64,000 nucleotides of DNA from positions 27,500 to 91,499 of the forward strand of contig JADLED010000038.1 of the NCBI GenBank assembly GCA_020846335.1, read 5' to 3'. The notes beneath the pieces were generated by a model. That model did not search any database, had not been told where the DNA came from, and saw nothing but the letters and a program-made list of their open reading frames with translations. The translations under genes and the position numbers were made by a program. Below, in pieces: positions 2 through 46,385 of this stretch. The first letter of the stretch is position 1; each line of letters starts with the position of its first letter. The DNA is from Bacteroidia bacterium. GTDB lineage: Bacteria > Bacteroidota > Bacteroidia > B-17B0 > Aurantibacillaceae.

Positions 2-1657
2 ACCGGACAATCCTGGTTTCAGGGCAATCCATCGGTTTTTAACGCCTACAACGGTGCTCCAGCCGATTATCTTGCATGTAACTGGGCAAGTTGTGGCAAC
101 AACTCTTCGCCTGAAACCATTAGCAACTGGCTGATTACGCCTACGGTTACTCTGGTAAATGGTGGCGTTCTTGAATTTGCCTCCCGCACTTCTACCAACC
201 CTGCTACCTTTCCGGACAGACTTGAGGTTTATTATAGCCTTGGAAGTGGTACCAATGTTGGAAATACTTCCACCTCACTTGGCACCTTTTCTACTTTAAT
301 TGTAAGCGTTAATCCCAGCTTAACCACCACCGGCTATCCCGGCACATGGACCTTGTACACCAATGCCCTAACCGGTCTTTCGGGTCCAACTGTTGGTCGT
401 ATTGCATTCAGGTATCACGTAACTAACGGCGGCCCTGCCAGCTCTGCGGCCAATAGCGATTTTATTGGTTTGGATGCAGTTAAATACAGCGTACCGTGCG
501 GTGTGAGTGTGTCCAGCTATACTATTTGTTCGGGTGGTACAGCCACTCTTTCGGCTATTGGTGGAACTACCAACACCACTTATACCTGGTCGCCTGTTAG
601 CGGTTCGGTATCTTCAATTGTTGTTAGCCCAACAGCTACCTCTGTTTATACACTTTCTTACAGCGAAGGATCTAATATTTGCCCTGACAAAACCGCCACG
701 GTAACCATTGGCTCGCAATTATCAATGAATGTAGTTGCCAGTGCCAACACCGTGTGTTTGGGCAGTGCAGCCACTTTATCGGTTATTAGTTCGGCCACTA
801 CTTATTCATGGAGCACGGGTGCCACTTCTCCTGTAATTACTGTTACTCCTACTGGTGCCTCTACAACATATAGTGTTGGCGGTTTAAGCGGCCTGTGTTT
901 TGGTGGCAACACCATTGCTATAAGCACTGTTCCATTGCCAACTGTTACTGCTGTTACAAGCCCTTCGCTTTCCTGCCCTGATAGCGACGCCACTCTAACG
1001 GCTTCAGGTGCCTCAAGTTATGTTTGGGATTTGAGTGGATCACCTGCTACAACCAATCCTCTGTTAGTAAACGCCCCTTCAGTAAGTGGTGTTTATACGG
1101 TTGGTGTTAAAGGTAGTTCTGCTTTTGGTTGTGTTTCAAATCTTACCATTATCAATTTAACAGTGGTACCATCTCCTACAGTTGTGGCAAGCATTTCGCG
1201 CTCTTCGGCCTGTACCAACGAAACGGTATCACTTAATGCTTCTGGCGCCAACACTTATGCCTGGTCTGGTTCAACAACTTCGGCTCTGGCTTCGTTGATT
1301 TACACTACCGGAACTGTTGCGGGTAATAAAACATTTACACTTATTGGCATTGACGCAAACGGTTGCAGCGATACCACTAATGTAACTTTGAGTGTGAGCT
1401 TGTGCACCGGCATCGAAAAAGTTAATGGCAATGGCCTTGAAGCCTCTGCTTTCCCAAATCCATTCACCAACGAACTGAACCTTTCGGGTATTGTTGGTAA
1501 AATTGAAATTTACAACGCTTTGGGTCAGGTTGTGGTGAGCATGAGCACTAACGATTCTGAAAAAATTAATACAAGTGAGCTTCCAAAAGGTGCTTATATT
1601 CTTAAGGCTTACGCCATTAACGCACCGGTAAGAACCATTAAACTTTTAAAGAATTAA
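2..1657 (+). CDS. T9SS type A sorting domain protein, 5'-truncated by window edge (choice-of-anchor-like N-terminal region plus Ig/PKD-like repeats)
   Basis: Frame is open from base 2 (TGQSWFQGNPSVFNAYNGAPADYLACNWASCGNN...) into the listed 353..1657 ORF; C-terminus AFPNPFTNELNLSG...GAYILKAYAINAPVRTIKLLKN is a T9SS type A CTD. Confidence 0.85.
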   Translation, partial: TGQSWFQGNPSVFNAYNGAPADYLACNWASCGNNSSPETISNWLITPTVTLVNGGVLEFASRTSTNPATFPDRLEVYYSLGSGTNVGNTSTSLGTFSTLIVSVNPSLTTTGYPGTWTLYTNALTGLSGPTVGRIAFRYHVTNGGPASSAANSDFIGLDAVKYSVPCGVSVSSYTICSGGTATLSAIGGTTNTTYTWSPVSGSVSSIVVSPTATSVYTLSYSEGSNICPDKTATVTIGSQLSMNVVASANTVCLGSAATLSVISSATTYSWSTGATSPVITVTPTGASTTYSVGGLSGLCFGGNTIAISTVPLPTVTAVTSPSLSCPDSDATLTASGASSYVWDLSGSPATTNPLLVNAPSVSGVYTVGVKGSSAFGCVSNLTIINLTVVPSPTVVASISRSSACTNETVSLNASGANTYAWSGSTTSALASLIYTTGTVAGNKTFTLIGIDANGCSDTTNVTLSVSLCTGIEKVNGNGLEASAFPNPFTNELNLSGIVGKIEIYNALGQVVVSMSTNDSEKINTSELPKGAYILKAYAINAPVRTIKLLKN

Positions 1658-1675
1658 ATTGATTTCTGATAATTT

Positions 1676-1705
1676 AAAAGCCTCCGTTATGCGGGGGCTT
1701 TTTTA
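1676..1705 (+). terminator. intrinsic terminator
   Basis: AAAAGCCTCCG-TTATG-CGGGGGCTTTTTT hairpin with T tract just after the ORF stop. Confidence 0.8.
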
Positions 1706-1753
1706 TTTGAATAAATCAGAATTCAATTGGTAAATTAGTGGCACCGATAAAAC

Positions 1754-2881
1754 ATGAATGTAGACAATTTATTAAACCGTGCTTTAAAATTTGATTTTCT
1801 GAGCATTGAGGAAGGTGTTTTTTTATTTGAGCACGCACCTAGTTCGGAACTGATGTTTGTGGCCAACGAATTGCGGAAAATTCAAAAAAAGAATTCGAAT
1901 AAAGTTACCTGGATTATAGACCGCAACATGAATACCACCAATGTGTGTATTGCCAATTGCAAGTTTTGTAATTTTTACCGCATACCGGGTCATGCCGAAA
2001 GTTATATTACCGATATTGAAACCTATAAACGTACAATTGAAGAAACCTTTAAATACGGCGGCGAACAATTGTTGTTACAGGGTGGCCATCATCCTGATTT
2101 AGGATTGTCGTTTTATGTTAATTTATTCAGAGAGTTAAAAGGACTTTACCCCAATTTAAAACTTCATGCCCTGGGGCCACCCGAAATTGCACACATTACC
2201 AAGCTCGAAAAAAGCACCCACACTGAAGTGTTAAAGGCATTGGTGGATGCGGGCATGGACAGTTTACCCGGTGCCGGTGCCGAAATTTTGAATGACCGCG
2301 TTCGTAGATTAATAAGTAAAGGCAAATGCACCGGCCGTGAGTGGCTTGAAGTGATGAAGGCCGCACACCAATTGAACATTACCACCAGTGCCACCATGAT
2401 GTTTGGACACGTTGAAACCATTTACGAACGTTTTGAACATTTGGTTTGGCTGCGCGAGGTTCAGGCGCTGAAACCTGCCAATGCCAAGGGTTTTCTGGCG
2501 TTTATTCCGTGGCCTTTTCAGGACGATGGTACTTTGCTGAACAGATTGAAGGGAATTAAAAACAATGTTACTTCCGATGAATACATACGAATGTTGGCGC
2601 TTAGCCGCATCATGCTACCCAATGTAGAAAACATTCAGGCAAGTTGGTTAACGGTTGGCAAGCATACTGCGCAAATTTGTCTTCATGCAGGCGCCAATGA
2701 TTTTGGAAGTATTATGATTGAAGAAAATGTGGTGAGTGTGGCGGGAGCTCCGCACCGTTTTACCTATAAACAAATTCAGGAATCGATTAAAGAAGCCGGA
2801 TTTGAGCCACAATTGAGAAACCAACAATACGATTACCGCGAAATTCCGCAGGGCATAGAAGAGCAGGTTATCTCTTACTAA
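1754..2881 (+). CDS. mqnC: cyclic dehypoxanthinyl futalosine synthase (radical SAM)
   Basis: CIANCKFCNFYR radical SAM motif; LLLQGGHHPDLGLSFY, GAGAEILNDRVR and FIPWPFQDDGT typical of MqnC. Confidence 0.9.
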   Translation: MNVDNLLNRALKFDFLSIEEGVFLFEHAPSSELMFVANELRKIQKKNSNKVTWIIDRNMNTTNVCIANCKFCNFYRIPGHAESYITDIETYKRTIEETFKYGGEQLLLQGGHHPDLGLSFYVNLFRELKGLYPNLKLHALGPPEIAHITKLEKSTHTEVLKALVDAGMDSLPGAGAEILNDRVRRLISKGKCTGREWLEVMKAAHQLNITTSATMMFGHVETIYERFEHLVWLREVQALKPANAKGFLAFIPWPFQDDGTLLNRLKGIKNNVTSDEYIRMLALSRIMLPNVENIQASWLTVGKHTAQICLHAGANDFGSIMIEENVVSVAGAPHRFTYKQIQESIKEAGFEPQLRNQQYDYREIPQGIEEQVISY

Positions 2882-2918
2882 TTTATTTAATTCGCCACTT
2901 TTTAAACTATATTTGTTA

Positions 2919-3566
2919 ATGCTTAAGAAAATTTACGTTTCTTTTCTTCTGATACTTTTTTGTAATTGTGCAAGCGCTCAGAGCAGTGTTCAGGACACGG
3001 TTTACCTGATGAACGGGCTGGCAATTGGCGAAAAAATTATTGATACCACTTTGGGTGCGGTTACCATTTACAACCCAAAAAAACACGCCCAACGGATTAA
3101 TTATGAGTGGGATCAGTTGTACATGATTCGTTATGCCAACGGAAACAAGCGTTATTATTACCGACAGGATTCTTTGCTCAACAATGTTTTTACACGCGAC
3201 GAAATGTGGCTATACATGAAGGGTGAAAACGACGCACGCAAAGGATTTAAGGCCAGAGGCGCATTGGTAACGGGCATTGCCTTGGGTTTTGTTGGTGGAG
3301 CTACCGGAACATTTTGGGGGCCGGTTGCCCCTTTCAGTTTTATGGCTCTTTCGGGCGTGACCAAAATAAAAATAAAGGCCGAAACGATTAGCAATCCGGC
3401 ATGGATAGACAGCGACGCCTACATTTTAGGCTACGAACGGGTGGCACGGCAAAAACGCAAAGTGAAATCGCTTTTAGGTGGTGGCATTGGATTGGTTGCA
3501 GGTTATCTCTTTTTTGCCGCCTTGCACAATAGTTACCCTCAAAGCATATATTCAGGATCAAAATGA
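2919..3566 (+). CDS. hypothetical exported/membrane protein
   Basis: Signal peptide then Gly-rich hydrophobic segments; stop overlaps the next start (ATGA). Confidence 0.7.
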   Translation: MLKKIYVSFLLILFCNCASAQSSVQDTVYLMNGLAIGEKIIDTTLGAVTIYNPKKHAQRINYEWDQLYMIRYANGNKRYYYRQDSLLNNVFTRDEMWLYMKGENDARKGFKARGALVTGIALGFVGGATGTFWGPVAPFSFMALSGVTKIKIKAETISNPAWIDSDAYILGYERVARQKRKVKSLLGGGIGLVAGYLFFAALHNSYPQSIYSGSK

Positions 3567-5710
3567 AAAATAAATTTTTTACGACATTTTTATTCTCCGG
3601 ATTACTATTTTCGGGGGTAGTGGCTCAAAACGCATTTAACTGCAACAGTCACGAACAGTATCAAAAGCAAATGCAGCAGGATGCTTCCTTTAAAAAAAAT
3701 CAGGAACAACTGGAACAGGAAACAAAGGCCCTCATTGCCAACATGGCCATGGCCAAACCTGCAGCAGCAGCGCCATACATCATACCAGTGGTGTTTCATG
3801 TAATTTATACCACAGCCTATGGTAACATCAGCGATGCGCAAATTATTGATCAGGTAGCTATTTTAAACAAAGAATTTAACCGCCAACAGGCCGATACTTT
3901 GCTTACGCCGTCGGCATTTCTTCCTGTAGCAGGCAAGTTTAATGTTGAATTTCGTTTGGCCACCCTTGACCCTAATGGTAACTGTACCAATGGCATTAAC
4001 CGTGTTTACAGCACATTGAGTAATTGCTCAGTTAACGAAAACGATGTGAAAGCAGTTTCTTACTGGCCAAGCAATATGTATCTCAATATCTGGCTTACAC
4101 AATCCATGCACTATTCAAACAGCACCGATTGCGGCGGAGGTGGTTATGCCACTTTTCCGGGGGGTGCTGCAACTAATGACGGAATTAATATACGTGGCGA
4201 CCTAATTGGAAACATTGGTACTGCTGCTACCAACTCGGGTTGGGGAAACTTTAAAGGCCGCTATCTGATTCACGAACTCGGTCACTGGTTTAATCTGCGC
4301 CACATTTGGGGCGATGCTATCTGTGGCAACGACCAGGTAGCCGATACACCTCCGGCGGTTTCCAGCAATAGTTCCTGTCCTGTGTTTCCACGCAATCCTT
4401 TTAACTCCTGCGGCAGTGGTGCCAGTGGCGAAATGTTTACCAATTACATGGATTATACCAATGGTCCCTGTTTAAATATGTTTACCGCAGGTCAGGTAAC
4501 CCGCATGACAGCGGCTCTAAGCTCCAGCATTTCGGGGCGCAACAATTTATGGAGTACCTCCAACCTAAATGCCACAGGCACCAACAATCCATATACCTAT
4601 CCCGTAGCCTGTGCCTCTGAACCAGATGTGTTGCCTCTCACCCCAATTATTGCCTGCGTGGACGATTCTGTTTTAATTACAGATAATTCCTACGGTGGTT
4701 CGGTGAGTTCGCGTGTTTGGAATTTTGGTAATGCCGGTGCATCCAGTTTAAGTAATGGTGCTGTAAAGGTTAAATATTCTGCACCCGGTGTTTACTCGTT
4801 TACTTTAACCAACAATTATTTAAGCAGCAGCAAAACCAGGGTGTTTAGTAACAAGGTATATATTCTTCCGAATGTAACCAGCGCCAGTTACGTAGTGCCT
4901 TTTACCGATAGTTTTGAAGATGTAAATGCTTATTTGAATGACTGGACAGTTGTGGACAGAGACAATGATGCGGTGAGCTGGGAAATAACTGCATCTACTG
5001 CTTACACAGATTTTAATTCTATTTACATTGCCAATTTTGATAATCGTGCCCCAACGGTTGATGAAATTATTTCTCCACCCTACAACCTGAGTGCTGTTGA
5101 AAATCCAACGCTTACTTTTATGCTTCATTCTGCAAGGCGCACAACCACAGACAACGACCAACTGCAGGTTTTTATTTCAAACAATTGTGGTGCCACCTGG
5201 AATTCGATTTATTTTAAAAGTGGCTCTGCACTAAAAACCATTTTGGCCAACCAGGCCAGTTCTTACACGCCGGCGGTTACTTCTGCCGACTGGCGCCTTG
5301 AAAAAATAAACATTCAGCCTTTTATGGCAACCGGTATTGTTCATTTTAAATTTGCTTTTACCGGTGGTGGTGGCAACAATATTTTTATTGACGACATTAA
5401 TCTGGATGGTATAAATACCACAGGCCTAAAATCCATTCAGGCACCTGCTTTGTTGCGTGTTTTCCCAAATCCTGCCAACAATTATCTGAATGTGAAATGG
5501 AGCGCGCATAGCAAAGCGGGCGGGGACATTGATGTTGTGGATGTGTTGGGACGAAGCTGTTTGCAAATTAAAAACGGTTCGGCCCTGATGAAAGAAAACA
5601 CGACCGTTATTGATATTGCAGGACTTGAAAACGGTGTTTATTTTATTAACCTGCGTCAAAATGGCCAGGTGCTAAGCACCACTAAATTTGTGAAACAAAG
5701 TGCCGAATAA
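3563..5710 (+). CDS. secreted zinc metalloprotease, M43/pappalysin-like, with T9SS type A CTD
   Basis: HELGHWFNLRHIWGD (HExxHxxxxxH); PKD-like region; C-terminal FPNPANNYLNVKW...GVYFINLRQNGQVLSTTKFVKQ. Confidence 0.88.
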   Translation: MKNKFFTTFLFSGLLFSGVVAQNAFNCNSHEQYQKQMQQDASFKKNQEQLEQETKALIANMAMAKPAAAAPYIIPVVFHVIYTTAYGNISDAQIIDQVAILNKEFNRQQADTLLTPSAFLPVAGKFNVEFRLATLDPNGNCTNGINRVYSTLSNCSVNENDVKAVSYWPSNMYLNIWLTQSMHYSNSTDCGGGGYATFPGGAATNDGINIRGDLIGNIGTAATNSGWGNFKGRYLIHELGHWFNLRHIWGDAICGNDQVADTPPAVSSNSSCPVFPRNPFNSCGSGASGEMFTNYMDYTNGPCLNMFTAGQVTRMTAALSSSISGRNNLWSTSNLNATGTNNPYTYPVACASEPDVLPLTPIIACVDDSVLITDNSYGGSVSSRVWNFGNAGASSLSNGAVKVKYSAPGVYSFTLTNNYLSSSKTRVFSNKVYILPNVTSASYVVPFTDSFEDVNAYLNDWTVVDRDNDAVSWEITASTAYTDFNSIYIANFDNRAPTVDEIISPPYNLSAVENPTLTFMLHSARRTTTDNDQLQVFISNNCGATWNSIYFKSGSALKTILANQASSYTPAVTSADWRLEKINIQPFMATGIVHFKFAFTGGGGNNIFIDDINLDGINTTGLKSIQAPALLRVFPNPANNYLNVKWSAHSKAGGDIDVVDVLGRSCLQIKNGSALMKENTTVIDIAGLENGVYFINLRQNGQVLSTTKFVKQSAE

Positions 5711-5734
5711 ATTCGTGCAAAAATTTCGACAGTC

Positions 5735-6277
5735 ATGATTCGTTTTTTCGCAGGGTTGTTTTTTGTACTAAGCTTTTGCGCAAAGGCTCAATCTGTCGAT
5801 TCATTAATTCAACATTCCGAAAGTATTTTAAAATCACTACAGGTGGGCGACTCTGTTATTTATTATCAGTGCCACGTGGAAGAAGCCGGCGTTCAGATTT
5901 CTACCGCTTCGGGTCAAACACTTAGTGGCAGCAGCCATAAATGCTCCATTACCGAAAAACTGGTGGTTATTAAAACCCAGTCGGGTTATTTTGCGAGGCG
6001 TTACTTTTCGTCGTTTACGGATTTGCCTAACCGAAAATTTACAGGCTTAAAGTTGCGCGAAAAGGCTTACTGGAATTTTAAGCTGGAGCGTGAGTTTAGT
6101 TTAACGGCAATGCATTTACGGGTGTTAGTGGGCTTGGAGCGCAAAGGCCGTGAAGCCATTGAATACGATTTTGTGATTTCGAAAAACAATCCCAATCAAT
6201 TAATTATTAGACATCACAAAAATTTTAAGCAACTGGTAATCGATGGGGATTATGTGTTGTCGAAGTTGATGAAATGA
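5735..6277 (+). CDS. hypothetical exported protein
   Basis: 180-aa ORF with signal peptide MIRFFAGLFFVLSFCAKAQ. Confidence 0.65.
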   Translation: MIRFFAGLFFVLSFCAKAQSVDSLIQHSESILKSLQVGDSVIYYQCHVEEAGVQISTASGQTLSGSSHKCSITEKLVVIKTQSGYFARRYFSSFTDLPNRKFTGLKLREKAYWNFKLEREFSLTAMHLRVLVGLERKGREAIEYDFVISKNNPNQLIIRHHKNFKQLVIDGDYVLSKLMK

Positions 6278-39969: not shown

Positions 39970-42819
39970 ATGATAACCAAACAAACTGAAAAAAAATTAT
40001 TTCTGTTAGATGCCTTTGCCCTCATCTACCGTTCCTACTTTGCCTTTAGCAACAATCCCCGCGTTAACTCAAAGGGCTTTAACACCTCGGCCATTTTTGG
40101 TTTTACCAATACCCTGCTCGAAATTTTAAATAAGGAAAAACCCAGTCACATTGCCGTGGTGTTTGATATGGAAGGCCCCACACAACGCCATGTGGAGTTT
40201 GAAGCCTACAAAGCCAACCGAGAGGAGATGCCCGAAGACCTCCGAACCTCTATTCCCATTATCATCGAACTCATTAAGGGTTTCAACATTCCTGTAATGG
40301 GTATTGAAGGCTTTGAGGCCGACGACCTTATTGGCACACTGGCCAAAAAAGCAGAGCTGGCGGGCTTTACCACCTACATGATGACACCCGACAAGGATTA
40401 CGGGCAATTGGTGGATGCCAATACCTTTATTTACAAACCCGCACGATTGGGCAATGGCGCAGAAATTCTGGGTCCTGAAGAAATTTGCAAAAAATGGGAA
40501 ATCCGCAATGTGAGTGAACTCATAGACATTTTAGGATTAATGGGCGACAAGGTGGATAACATTCCGGGCATACCCGGTGTGGGCGAAAAAACAGCCATTC
40601 AACTCATAAAAGATTTTGGCAGCATCGAAAACCTGTTGCAGAACACCGACAAGCTAAAAGGCAAATTGAAAGAGAAGGTGGAAATGCATAAGGACATGGC
40701 CATACAATCCAAACGCCTTGCCACCATTATTTTAGATTGCCCCGTGGAGCTGGACGAGGAATTACTGGCGCTAAAGGAAGTAAACAAACCTGCCCTTCTC
40801 GAAATTTTCCGTGAGTTGGAGTTCCGACGCATTGCCCAGCAAATTGTAGGTGAAGACATAGGAGGCAACGAAAGCCTTCCATCCGAAAAAACAAAAGTTG
40901 AAAAGGTTAAAGCAAAAGGAAACCCTTCGCAGGTTGATATGTTTGCTGACAACAGCAACGAAAATGCCGGCAGCGACGAAGAACAGGAGCCTGCCGCGCC
41001 GGTTTACAAAACCATTGCCGATACCGAACATGTTTATGAACTGGCCGATACTGATGAAAAAATAAATGCGCTGATTAAAGAGCTTCAACAGCAAACAGAA
41101 TATTGTTTCGACAGTGAAACAACTTCGCTCGATACACTGGAGGCAGAGATTGTAGGCTTGTCGTTTGCCATTAAACAATTTCATGCCTGGTATGTGCCCA
41201 TATCGGCCAACAAAGAAGAAGCACAACGCACACTCGATATGTTTGCTCCCGTTTTTAACGATGAAAACAAAACACTGATTGGGCAAAACATTAAATACGA
41301 TTATCAGGTTCTTAAAAATTATGGCATCGAGATTAAAAACAAATTGTTTGATACCATGGTGGCCCACTTCCTGATTATGCCCGACATGCGCCACAACATG
41401 GACGTGCTTTCACAAACCTACCTCAACTATTCGCCGGTGAGTATTGAAACGCTGATTGGTAAAAAGGGCAAAGAGCAAGGCAGCATGCGCGATGTGGAAG
41501 TTGAAAAAATAAAAGACTACGCTGCCGAAGATGCCGATGTGACCCTGCAACTGAAACACAAATTTGCACCCGAACTCGAAAAAAACGAATTGCTTCCGCT
41601 TTTTAACAACGTGGAAGTGCCCCTCATAAAGGTACTGGCCAACATTGAACGCGAGGGCATTAATCTGGATGTTAACGGCCTCCGTGAGTTTTCGGCACAG
41701 TTACAAAACGACATTGCTCTGGTGGAAAAGGAAATTCAGGATTATGCCGGCACCAAATTCAATGTGTCGTCGCCCAAACAGGTGGGCGAGATTTTGTTTG
41801 AGTATTTAAAGATTGTGGAAAAGCCTAAAAAAACAAAAACAGGCCAGTATGCCACCGGCGAAGATGTGTTGAGTAAACTCGAAAACGCACATCCTATTGT
41901 TTCTAAAATTCTGGATTACCGCGAGCTGAACAAATTAAAAAACACCTATGTGGACACGCTGCCCGAAATGGTGAGTAAACAAACGCACCGCATTCACACC
42001 TCCTTTAATCAGGTGGTGGCCGTTACCGGGCGCCTGAGCAGCGATAATCCCAACCTGCAAAACATCCCTATCCGCACCGAGCGCGGCAGGCAAATCCGCA
42101 AGGCTTTTATTCCACGCGACAACGATCATATTTTACTCAGCGCCGATTATTCGCAAATTGAATTGCGCATTGTGGCCAGCATTAGCGGCGACAAAAACAT
42201 GTGCGAGGCTTTTCAGTTAGGTAAAGACATACATACTGCCACCGCCGCCAAAGTGTTTGGTGTGGCCGAAGCCGATGTGACCAAGGAAATGCGCTACAAA
42301 AGCAAGAGCGTTAACTTTGGCATTATTTACGGTCAGGGCGCCTTTGGTTTGGCCGATAACCTCAACATTCCACGCAAGGAAGCGCAGGAACTCATCAGCA
42401 ATTATTTTAAGGAATATGGCGGCATAAAAAGTTATATGGACGACACCATCAATTTTGCCCGCGAAAACGGTTATGTGCAAACGCTGTTGGGCAGAAGGCG
42501 TTGGTTGCGTGACATTAATTCGAACAACGCCACGGTAAGGAGTTTTGCCGAACGCAATGCCATTAACGCGCCCATACAGGGCAGCGCGGCCGACATGATT
42601 AAGGTGGCCATGATAAACATTTACAACGAACTGAAAAAACAAAACTTTAAAAGCAAAATGCTCTTGCAGGTGCATGACGAGTTGGTGTTTGATGTGTATA
42701 AGCCTGAGTTGGAAACCATTCAACCCATTATAGAAAAACTGATGCGCGAAGCCCTGCCTCTAAAAGTGCCAGTAGAAGTAGGACTGGGAACGGGAGAAAA
42801 TTGGTTGGCCGCGCATTGA
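39970..42819 (+). CDS. polA: DNA polymerase I
   Basis: 5' nuclease, 3'-5' exonuclease and polymerase motifs (SADYSQIELRIVASISGD; YKSKSVNFGIIYGQGAFGLA; LLQVHDELVFDV). Confidence 0.95.
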   Translation: MITKQTEKKLFLLDAFALIYRSYFAFSNNPRVNSKGFNTSAIFGFTNTLLEILNKEKPSHIAVVFDMEGPTQRHVEFEAYKANREEMPEDLRTSIPIIIELIKGFNIPVMGIEGFEADDLIGTLAKKAELAGFTTYMMTPDKDYGQLVDANTFIYKPARLGNGAEILGPEEICKKWEIRNVSELIDILGLMGDKVDNIPGIPGVGEKTAIQLIKDFGSIENLLQNTDKLKGKLKEKVEMHKDMAIQSKRLATIILDCPVELDEELLALKEVNKPALLEIFRELEFRRIAQQIVGEDIGGNESLPSEKTKVEKVKAKGNPSQVDMFADNSNENAGSDEEQEPAAPVYKTIADTEHVYELADTDEKINALIKELQQQTEYCFDSETTSLDTLEAEIVGLSFAIKQFHAWYVPISANKEEAQRTLDMFAPVFNDENKTLIGQNIKYDYQVLKNYGIEIKNKLFDTMVAHFLIMPDMRHNMDVLSQTYLNYSPVSIETLIGKKGKEQGSMRDVEVEKIKDYAAEDADVTLQLKHKFAPELEKNELLPLFNNVEVPLIKVLANIEREGINLDVNGLREFSAQLQNDIALVEKEIQDYAGTKFNVSSPKQVGEILFEYLKIVEKPKKTKTGQYATGEDVLSKLENAHPIVSKILDYRELNKLKNTYVDTLPEMVSKQTHRIHTSFNQVVAVTGRLSSDNPNLQNIPIRTERGRQIRKAFIPRDNDHILLSADYSQIELRIVASISGDKNMCEAFQLGKDIHTATAAKVFGVAEADVTKEMRYKSKSVNFGIIYGQGAFGLADNLNIPRKEAQELISNYFKEYGGIKSYMDDTINFARENGYVQTLLGRRRWLRDINSNNATVRSFAERNAINAPIQGSAADMIKVAMINIYNELKKQNFKSKMLLQVHDELVFDVYKPELETIQPIIEKLMREALPLKVPVEVGLGTGENWLAAH

Positions 42820-42849
42820 TGAAGGTGGAAGAAACCAACTTTACACCTG

Positions 42850-42880
42850 TTTGTTTAGACCTTTTATTCTTATATTTTTG
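42850..42880 (+). promoter_or_regulatory. Bacteroidota promoter for the toxin-antitoxin module
   Basis: TTTG-N19-TATTTTTG, between polA and the antitoxin. Confidence 0.65.
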
Positions 42881-42961
42881 TAAAACCACAACAATATAGG
42901 TCTTTTAAATAGGTGCTTATTATTGTTTAAAGGATATACTTAAAACACAAAATTTAAGCCA

Positions 42962-43204
42962 ATGACTCTTCAATTCATTCACGACAACAGAGGCAATACT
43001 ACAGGCGTATATATTCCTATTGAGGAATGGCAATTGTTAAAAACCAAATATGCCGATTTACAAAAGGAGGAAACAGAAAACGTTGAGGAGCCGGCCCCAT
43101 GGCAAAAACAAATTATTGAGGAGCGTTTAAACGATTATTATAAAAATCCTAATGATGTTGGGGACTTTGATAAAACCATAGATGATGTTGAAGAAAGTAT
43201 ATGA
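42962..43204 (+). CDS. putative antitoxin (type II TA)
   Basis: 80 aa, ...PAPWQKQIIEERLNDYYKNPNDVGDFDKTIDDVEESI; overlaps the toxin start by 4 nt (ATGA). Confidence 0.8.
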   Translation: MTLQFIHDNRGNTTGVYIPIEEWQLLKTKYADLQKEETENVEEPAPWQKQIIEERLNDYYKNPNDVGDFDKTIDDVEESI

Positions 43205-43500
43205 ACTATTCTTTTGTAAACAGCCCGTCTGTAAAGTTTGATATTATCAATGCTACTGATTATTATAAAAACATTAACCCTGAACTTGCCAGGCAGTTTT
43301 TGTTTCGTATTCGTGAAGCCAAATCATACATTGCACGCTCTCCCCTTGGCTTTCAGGTTAAATACAAAAACGTAAGAACATTATTGCTAAAACAGTTTCC
43401 TTATCATATTCATTATCTCATTAATGACACTGAACAAAAAATTGTAATTCTTGCGGTGATTCACGCTTATAAAAACCCTTACGATTTTACAACTAGGTAG
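43201..43500 (+). CDS. RelE/ParE family toxin
   Basis: 99 aa, FDIINATDYYKNINPELARQFLFRIREAKSYIARSPLGFQVKYKNVRTLLLKQFPYHIHYLINDTEQKIVILAVIHAYKNP. Confidence 0.88.
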   Translation: MNYSFVNSPSVKFDIINATDYYKNINPELARQFLFRIREAKSYIARSPLGFQVKYKNVRTLLLKQFPYHIHYLINDTEQKIVILAVIHAYKNPYDFTTR

Positions 43501-43573
43501 TACCCCAAATTATTATGTCAAGGTTTATGACACCAGTTACAAAACCGAAATCGTAAGCGAGAAACCCATTCCT

Positions 43574-43660
43574 GAAAAACTGATGCGCGAAGCCCTGCCT
43601 CTAAAAGTGCCGGTTGAAGTAGGACTGGGAACGGGAGAAAATTGGTTGGCGGCACATTAA
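43574..43660 (+). pseudogene. orphan duplicate of the polA 3' end (EKLMREALPLKVPVEVGLGTGENWLAAH*)
   Basis: 82/87 nt identical to 42733..42819; all five differences synonymous (including TGA/TAA). Confidence 0.93.
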
Positions 43661-43767
43661 TCCTATTTAATAAATTAAATCTCTCTTAATTAGATCGATT
43701 TGCCTAATCAATGTAGTTCTTCAATAATCAGCTTAACCATTTCAGCTAAAGATTCCACCATAAAAAA

Positions 43768-43793
43768 ATCCCCACCGGCTACCGATGGGGATT
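43768..43793. terminator. bidirectional terminator
   Basis: AATCCCCACCGGCTACCGATGGGGATT with flanking A and T tracts. Confidence 0.75.
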
Positions 43794-43823
43794 CTTTATT
43801 AATTATAAAATCAATTTCCTTTG

Positions 43824-46208
43824 CTAGTCAACCACCACTTTCTGGCTAACACTTTTTATTCCGTTTTGACCCATTACAAAATACACACCGCTGCTTAATC
43901 CGTTTACTTTTGCCTTGTACTTGTTGGACGCATTGAGTGAAATAGTTTTTATTACCTGGCCCAATTGATTTACCAGACTTAGTTCAATCGTACTTTCAGA
44001 CTCAATCATAAACCATTCATTGCTTGGATTCGGATAAACTACGAGATTGCTTAAGTTAAGATTGTTTTCATTAATGCCCACACAACCATTCACTTTAATT
44101 TGAACGTTGGCCGTGTTACTGCAACCAAACGAGTTGGTGCCCACCACCGAAATATTGAGTGTGGTTACCAGGGTGGATGTTACCACAATGGAAGGTGAGG
44201 TGGCAAATGTGCTCCAGCTATAAGTGCCCGCTCCTGATGCCGTAACGGTAATGGTTTCTGCTTTACACATGCTGGTGCGGCTTGACACTGCTGTTACAGT
44301 AGGGTTTGGATTAACCGTTACCTGAATGGTTTGAGTGTCGGCACAATTAATGTTTCCGGTAGCGGTAATTGATGTTACGGTATAAATAGTGGTAGCCAAA
44401 GGTGTTACGTTTAAAGCAGGGAAAGGGTTATTAGGCAACCACGTATAAGTATCGGCACCGCTGGCTGTGAGTGTGGTACTCATTCCGTCGCAAAGCACCG
44501 TGTTTCCGGCTATTGAAACGGAAGGCGTGTAAACTTCAATAGAAACGGTTTCGGTACCATTACAGCCGCTCAATTCACCGGTTACTGTATAAACAGTTGT
44601 ACTAAGTGGCGACTCAACAGTTACCGATGTGGTAGGCCCGCTGCTCCAGGTGTAGTTGCTGGCGCCACCTGCTGTTAAAGTGGCTGTACCGCCGGCACAA
44701 ATCAACACATCGCTGCTAACAGCCGTTACTGTAGGGCTTGGGTTGGTAATAACCACTGCCACATTGCCCGCCGAACAACCTAAAGAATTGGTAGCGCCCA
44801 CCGAATAGGCAGTTGGTGCTGTTGGATTAACAGTTATGTTAGGTGTGGACATATTACCCGGTGTCCAGGTATAGGTTAAACCACCACTGGCCGTCATAGT
44901 CACAGCGTCGCCCGCACAAACCACAGAGGAGCTGGAAACAATACTGATGGTTGGTATGGGGAGTGCATTAAGGCTTACGGTAGAAGTTCCAGAACAGGTG
45001 CCGTCACTGGCTGTAACTGTATAAATGGTAGTGTTTTGTGGGCTAACTGACACTGAATTGCTCGATGAGCTGCTGTTAATCGGCATCCACGTATAATTGT
45101 TGGCCGCTGCAGCCACATTAAGCACTGCTGTTTGGCCGGAACAAACTACCGAAGGCGAAGCCAGTAAAGAAACTACGAGCGGCGCCACTGTAATGCTGGT
45201 GGTAGCGCTGCCTGTGCCGCACCCGTTTAATCCGGTAACGGTGTAAGTTCCGGAAACCGACGGTGTAAAACCTGTTCCGTTAATAACACCGCCACTCCAG
45301 GTGTAAGAATTAGCACCAGAAGCAGTAAGAATTACTGTTTTACCAAAACACACGTTATTGGTATTGGTGGTAACCGAAAGCACCGGTGCGCCCGCACTTA
45401 CGGTAACTGTAATAACGGTAGAAGACATGCAGTTAGAAACACTCATGGCGGATAAGGTATACGTGGTGTTTACTGACGGTGATACCGCAATGGTTGAGGC
45501 CGTTGAGCCTGTGCTCCAACTGTAATTACTCACCGCATTGGTGTTTAGAGTTATTCCGCCACCCGAACAAACCGCAGGTGCCACCGTGCTGCTGCCCGAT
45601 GTAGCAAATAAATTAATGCTGCAGGCCCCGGTTATTAAAATGTCGTCCACATAAATCCCATCATAGGCATTGCCAATTCCGTCAACCGAATCAAAATTAA
45701 ACTTTACAATAATGGTTTGGCTGGCATAGGCCGAAAGGTTGTAACTCACGGAAGTCCAACCCGAGGTGTTTGACAAACCGCCAGGAGAGCTGCTCGAAGA
45801 AACAATGTCGGTATAGCTTGCACCGTTGTTATTTGATATCGACATTCTTAAAATGTCGTAGGTACAACTGCCACTGCCACATTCGTTGGCCACAAAGTAA
45901 TTAAACGTAAGAGTGCCGCCTAAAGCGCCAATAACCACGGTAGGTGTACGTAAATCGCCACTGGTGGTGCTGCTACCATTACCAAACTGACAACCCGAAC
46001 CCTGGAAAATAGCATGACCGGGGGCACTGTGTCCGGTAAGAGAGCTCTGCGCGCAGGAGTTAGACCAGGCCCAGGCTCCATTTGAAGAGTTGGTGGCCGT
46101 GGTGGTTCCTAAATTGGAATTAAAGGTTTCGGAGTAAAGAATGGTTTGAGCATTGAGTGTTAACCCAGTTACAAATAGTAACAATGTTGCAAGTAAAAGT
46201 TTTTTCAT
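43824..46208 (-). CDS. secreted multi-repeat Ig/PKD-like protein with T9SS type A CTD
   Basis: Signal peptide; many CxGxxxTLTASGAxxYTWSxG...TTxYTVT repeats; C-terminal VVYPNPSNEWFMIES...GVYFVMGQNGIKSVSQKVVVD. Confidence 0.88.
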   Translation of the reverse strand: MKKLLLATLLLFVTGLTLNAQTILYSETFNSNLGTTTATNSSNGAWAWSNSCAQSSLTGHSAPGHAIFQGSGCQFGNGSSTTSGDLRTPTVVIGALGGTLTFNYFVANECGSGSCTYDILRMSISNNNGASYTDIVSSSSSPGGLSNTSGWTSVSYNLSAYASQTIIVKFNFDSVDGIGNAYDGIYVDDILITGACSINLFATSGSSTVAPAVCSGGGITLNTNAVSNYSWSTGSTASTIAVSPSVNTTYTLSAMSVSNCMSSTVITVTVSAGAPVLSVTTNTNNVCFGKTVILTASGANSYTWSGGVINGTGFTPSVSGTYTVTGLNGCGTGSATTSITVAPLVVSLLASPSVVCSGQTAVLNVAAAANNYTWMPINSSSSSNSVSVSPQNTTIYTVTASDGTCSGTSTVSLNALPIPTISIVSSSSVVCAGDAVTMTASGGLTYTWTPGNMSTPNITVNPTAPTAYSVGATNSLGCSAGNVAVVITNPSPTVTAVSSDVLICAGGTATLTAGGASNYTWSSGPTTSVTVESPLSTTVYTVTGELSGCNGTETVSIEVYTPSVSIAGNTVLCDGMSTTLTASGADTYTWLPNNPFPALNVTPLATTIYTVTSITATGNINCADTQTIQVTVNPNPTVTAVSSRTSMCKAETITVTASGAGTYSWSTFATSPSIVVTSTLVTTLNISVVGTNSFGCSNTANVQIKVNGCVGINENNLNLSNLVVYPNPSNEWFMIESESTIELSLVNQLGQVIKTISLNASNKYKAKVNGLSSGVYFVMGQNGIKSVSQKVVVD

Positions 46209-46338
46209 TTGGTTTAGTTTTAGTTCGTCTGTTTATTAAGATTCAGTTTGTCAAAATTAGGCCATTTTTTGCAATATATCACGCTTGTCTCCTTTTTTAC
46301 CCATTAGGAGCGTGTCTGTTTCCTTTTCAATAATTTTC

Positions 46339-46369
46339 TTTGATGCTCGCAATTTGATTTATACATTTA
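46339..46369 (+). promoter_or_regulatory. Bacteroidota promoter
   Basis: TTTG-N19-TACATTTA upstream of the 46386 ATG. Confidence 0.6.
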
Positions 46370-46385
46370 ATCTAAATTAAACCGC

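Follow-up and report, generated by a model that had tools for sequence, protein, structure and literature searches.

How does a toxin-antitoxin (TA) pair come to lie between an intact housekeeping gene and a second copy of that gene's own 3' end? The question is raised by a locus in the window (the whole 64,000-nt stretch of DNA analysed here), in which polA is followed by (i) a two-gene TA module and (ii) a second polA terminus (Table 1).

The TA pair and the two polA tails

A self-BLAST search recovered the repeat as one ungapped block of 99 nt and 92% identity (42722-42820 and 43563-43661; E ~1e-34), its two copies starting 841 nt apart. Over the last 29 codons, the final 87 nt of polA (42733-42819) match positions 43574-43660 at 82/87 nt, and all five differences, the TGA/TAA stop swap included, are synonymous, which confirms what the initial annotation had reported for this tail. 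The reading frame of tail 2 is open for 66 codons only, PolA similarity ending near 43563, and the ORF list contains nothing between the tails other than the antitoxin-like ORF and the toxin.

The toxin scores 27.1 bits against PF05016, where the cut-off is 23, and thereby belongs to the ParE/RelE family; the antitoxin-like ORF, which overlaps the toxin gene, has Pfam matches below cut-off and no NCBIfam match. The pair resembles ParE/RelE and HicAB type II TA modules in general in its two-gene layout and in the Pfam domain of its toxin. The RelE/ParE-type pair itself is ordinary; its genomic setting is the unusual part. The cassette had also been credited with its own promoter, TTTG-N19-TATTTTTG. 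The motif is indeed present and has a probability of ~0.4% of arising by chance on the same strand of the 142-nt polA-TA gap, but over both strands of the whole window the pattern is at chance level (4 found vs. 3.8 expected), and it is listed here as a candidate.

Table 1. Parts of the window locus (window positions) and gene-tail duplications at other loci; polA, uvrB, and pdxA aside, host genes were named by inspection of the sequence alone
Feature	Location	Strand	Insert	Basis
polA, DNA polymerase I, 949 aa, intact	39970..42819	+		Pfam DNA_pol_A, 5'-3' exonuclease, and 3'-5' exonuclease domains; NCBIfam TIGR00593/NF004397
Tail 1, 3' end of intact polA, first direct-repeat copy	42722..42820	+		Repeat search and tail scan
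Candidate Bacteroidota-type promoter of the TA pair, TTTG-N19-TATTTTTG	42850..42880	+		Sequence pattern
Antitoxin-like ORF, 80 aa, overlaps toxin start	42962..43204	+		Weak RelB-like and Unstab_antitox Pfam matches
RelE/ParE-superfamily toxin, 99 aa	43201..43500	+		PF05016 above curated cut-off; 68% aa homolog in G035
Tail 2, second, partial polA 3' end, stop TAA, no intact gene	43563..43661	+		Repeat search; synonymous-only differences in the last 29 codons
polA, three tails	L162 9311-12028, Cytophagales MAG, ahead of tgt		See text	polA locus scan and Pfam
uvrB tail pair	G009 (genus)		RelE-type TA	
pdxA tail pair, 96%	G009 (genus)		HicAB	
hemD tail pair, 250 nt, 95%	G012 (genus)		HicB-like with HicA	
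Unnamed gene tail pair	G034 (genus)		ParE-type TA	
SpoIIE-like gene, three tails	G018 (genus)		TA between second and third tails	
Methylase-like gene, four tails	L299, G035:C18:14000-19500 (genus)		RelE-type pair between last two tails	
ABC-F gene tail pair	G259 (outside genus)		DUF4160 and second small ORF	
T9SS gene tail pair	G076 (outside genus)		DUF4160 and second small ORF	

The polA 3' side in related genomes

The genus was sampled with 40 genomes, one per species and mostly draft or MAG, whose polA genes mostly share 70-80% DNA identity over the aligned stretch. Among the 32 other congeners for which 3 kb or more was available downstream, a second polA tail was present in one (G002; 53 nt at 87%, located after a TPR gene). 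The initial annotation had predicted TA-less relatives with a single tail and had held that relatives all carrying both tails would point to an old fixed arrangement; a single tail is what nearly all congeners show, and the window insert is therefore not an old fixed arrangement. It had further suggested establishing which of the two tails the relatives match, and here the nearest relatives, being at most 83% identical in the tail, are too diverged for either tail 1 or tail 2 to be assigned as the native copy. Across the class sample of 368 matching genomes, no further second tail was confirmed adjoining polA; candidates came up in five other class genomes, and the four of these examined (G350 was left out) had none near polA.

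In oriented congener sequences where synteny is kept, polA is followed by a conserved T9SS gene (c0), an rpoN-like gene, and a tyrS-like gene. The interval between polA and c0 (42820-46385 in the window) is variable in the genus, being empty, or occupied by one gene or by a five-gene cargo (G006 and G018). Two contigs of one congener, G019, namely C19 (1-1050) and C14 (1-3700), corresponding to loci L062/L063, carry differing cargo in this interval; their polA tails are 95% and their c0 starts 98.5% identical, and the sequence between them diverges from the polA stop codon onward. The two contigs are probably strain variants.

The presence of probable strain variants at the very same polA site, together with the draft state of the source genome (352 contigs) and the MAG-like appearance of most genus members, would suit an assembly artefact in which variants of a mixed population had been merged. 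However, the TA-tail junction is unique sequence within a 91-kb contig, and the same architecture recurs, with other genes and TA families, in several independent assemblies (below). We therefore regard an artefact as highly improbable.

Recurrence at other genes and with other TA families

Two scans, one covering 160 TA-gene neighbourhoods from the genus and the class, the other 80 further Bacteroidota polA loci, located the additional tail duplications listed in Table 1. TA-type inserts at polA 3' ends, whose recurrence the initial annotation had suggested surveying, are found again at the three-tailed Cytophagales locus (L162), where HicA/HicB lies between tails 1 and 2, while tails 2 and 3 enclose a DUF4160 gene together with an unassigned ORF and a RelE-like pair. 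The layout is also found at unrelated host genes, however, and the tail-TA-tail phenomenon is special neither to polA nor to the TA family of the window. The T9SS case in G076 is weaker than the others, since a single genome can contain paralogous C-terminal sorting domains. The strict scan passed over two loci, L296 and L471, which were picked up on inspection. At L299, the four methylase-like 3' ends part successive small inserts, an array much like a cassette array.

The strict scan, which required a stop codon near the repeat end, returned five events, not counting that in the window, from 0.59 Mb selected around TA genes, vs. four events (G002, L162 twice, and L194) in 2.90 Mb unselected for TA (conditional binomial, P=0.009), which indicates a rough enrichment, the control set being centred on polA. 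No further events appeared in ~0.57 Mb of unselected sequence from G009 and the source genome, G000. In a relaxed scan, TA loci showed 3'-end duplications only, some of these calls being weak, and none at 5' ends. The cargo of the unselected tail duplications is not always a TA module, as it comprises a TPR gene in G002 and a protease in L194. In the latter (Olleya aquimaris, minus strand, 1629-6027), the tail of a YgiQ-like gene is duplicated around a large secreted protease, and a cytosine DNA methyltransferase gene stands immediately after tail 2.

Several candidates were rejected. A uvrB tail at a contig start in G060 proved to be a 141-nt assembler overlap and no duplication, a match at L495 was discarded as low complexity, and the repeats that bracket TA genes at L118, L454, L319, and L491 are intergenic rather than gene ends, possibly reflecting other insertion routes.

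Repeat boundaries and substitution pattern

Ten tail pairs were aligned, and in most of them the similarity extends no further than ~2 nt from the stop codon; across the ten it ends at the stop or a few bases beyond, the uvrB pair being the loosest, and it collapses at the stop in the 96% pdxA pair, too. The left ends of the tails are variable, and the length of the shared block varies from about 52 to 250 nt across cases. A rescan with wide slack around the stop returned very few repeats running past it.

By a minimal count, the tail pairs differ at 63 synonymous and 22 non-synonymous positions, where neutral change would give ~75% non-synonymous. Under a conservative count, in which every changed base in an altered codon was scored as non-synonymous, the ratio is 43:40, with 6 stop swaps, and it rejects neutral decay (P=1.5e-7) but departs only at P=0.02 from a local duplication with one constrained copy. 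The youngest pairs differ mostly synonymously, and older cases such as uvrB lack that bias. At uvrB, moreover, the sequence beyond tail 2 enters the neighbourhood that follows uvrB in G060 (GNAT, smpB). Judged from these alignments, the stop-codon boundary, the synonymous bias, and the uvrB flank favour a history in which orthologous gene ends with different downstream neighbours would have been joined by recombination. The initial annotation had found the paired window tails to fit import from a related strain better than decay of a local copy; the synonymous-only differences, the recurrence at unrelated genes, and the stop-codon boundary all support import from another lineage.

The simplest source of a nearby second copy would be a tandem duplication in place, in which the polA end was doubled before a TA pair inserted and the extra copy decayed, and the older, more diverged cases, which exclude it less strongly, fit it less poorly. 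We nevertheless consider it very improbable, because the window differences are synonymous only, because different sequence directly follows each tail, and because the pooled departure reported above persists even with conservative counting.

Target duplication on insertion is a different proposition, in which the survivors are only those events whose duplication restores the host gene, and survival would then favour gene 3' ends. Insertions of R-M systems are accompanied by target duplications that are long and variable, of the order of 100 bp (PMC3874152, PMC3031569), and both repeat length and addiction-type cargo match those insertions. As expected of a long target duplication, the window carries a long direct host repeat (99 nt) that is single in insert-free genomes (most congeners). 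Such duplications should, however, overrun the stop codon as often as not, and very few repeats did so in the wide-slack scan, similarity collapsing at the stop even at 96% identity; they should also begin as identical copies whose ends are independent of gene boundaries, whereas in the young pairs most differences are synonymous. On balance, target duplication appears unlikely.

One-sided homologous import as the favoured origin

The explanation that we favour, with moderate confidence, is one-sided homologous import of DNA consisting of a gene 3' end and a TA pair. Homologous exchange at polA had been proposed in the initial annotation; import stands, but a two-sided homologous exchange would leave no second tail, which implies that one junction was illegitimate or that the incoming DNA was circular. 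In the first case, DNA from a related lineage with a TA pair following polA would have entered the cell, aligned with the resident polA, and undergone a crossover inside conserved coding sequence. Its non-homologous far end would have been joined illegitimately shortly before the stop codon of the resident gene, by homology-facilitated illegitimate recombination (HFIR). In the second, ligation would have closed the fragment into a circle, which one crossover within the tail then integrated. By either route, the predicted product is an intact polA with a donor-type 3' end, the TA pair, the leftover resident tail, and the resident flank, and repeated events would build multi-tail arrays. TA modules may be over-represented in such products since they are small and often transferred, and since addiction would penalise any recombination of the flanking tails that removed them.

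Both routes are documented, HFIR as well as the integration of circularised linear DNA through one crossover (PMC3240628), and HFIR has been proposed for the shifted 3' ends in Vibrio T6SS immunity arrays (PMC5361080). The window architecture would fit one homologous junction plus one non-homologous junction with short microhomology; neither a donor locus nor a same-species empty site was found in our sample of one genome per species. The pattern as a whole suggests that imported TA genes arrive with a borrowed gene end and leave the host gene intact.

Genomic islands integrate at gene 3' ends by tyrosine recombinases, restoring the gene and leaving a remnant end, and a restored gene end together with a remnant on the far side is likewise what the window presents. 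An integrase acting in trans, site-specific at gene 3' ends, would yield this classic product, with the att site of the element restoring the gene and tail 2 representing the other att; an element-borne att site would also suit the synonymous differences. Unlike in such islands, however, the window insert contains the TA ORFs only, no integrase gene was recognised by eye in the other short inserts, and the targets comprise at least eight unrelated host genes, which share long homology blocks of variable length and no evident common core. We give an integrase in trans little credence.

Relation to known systems

To our knowledge, it is largely unexplained how chromosomal TA modules come to occupy so many unrelated positions when no transposase or integrase is involved. 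Insertion of R-M systems with long target duplication was reportedly described by Nobusato et al. (2000) and Furuta et al. (2010). As characterised in PMC3874152 and PMC3031569, those insertions resemble the present loci in that an addiction unit lies between direct host repeats of ~100 bp, with the host gene usable and no mobile element known, and they differ in three respects: here, (i) the cargo is a type II TA module, (ii) the repeat is a gene 3' end that stops at the stop codon, and (iii) the copies resemble diverged orthologs and not fresh duplicates. The T6SS effector-immunity arrays of Vibrio cholerae (PMC5361080) are also alike in having a homology anchor in the upstream gene, old 3' ends displaced downstream, and stepwise arrays. 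There, however, the anchoring gene is that of the effector, whose function changes, whereas here it is an unrelated housekeeping gene that keeps encoding the same protein, the cargo being an independent TA module. In the literature outside subscription journals, our search turned up no account of TA modules flanked on both sides by gene 3' ends.

A broader and only tentative proposal is that gene-tail-delimited cassettes provide a general, integrase-free form of TA mobility in Bacteroidota. Such a TA-plus-tail unit might pass from one strain to another, perhaps as a circle released when two tails recombine, re-enter by homology to the same gene end, always restore the gene, and accumulate in arrays stabilised by addiction. 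The recurring scar, a host 3' end on both sides of a TA module, offers a concrete and testable route for TA spread, and the tail-TA-tail layout a searchable signature of recent TA arrivals. Blocking by addiction of the reversal that repeat recombination would bring about may be a reason for the over-representation of TA modules.

Sequences related to the window TA pair

Occurrence of the window TA pair on plasmids was considered and rejected, the plasmid matches reaching only 31-34%. The fragment between the TA pair and tail 2 had been taken by eye for a remnant of the c5 gene; BLAST gave no support, and a DNA search of the genus genomes was likewise at chance level. The closest relative of the window TA pair lies at L064 (3433-3970; G035:C12), between gpsA-like and addB-like genes; its toxin, 68% identical at the amino acid level, is encoded by a gene with a premature stop, and the pair is unaccompanied by a gene-tail duplication.
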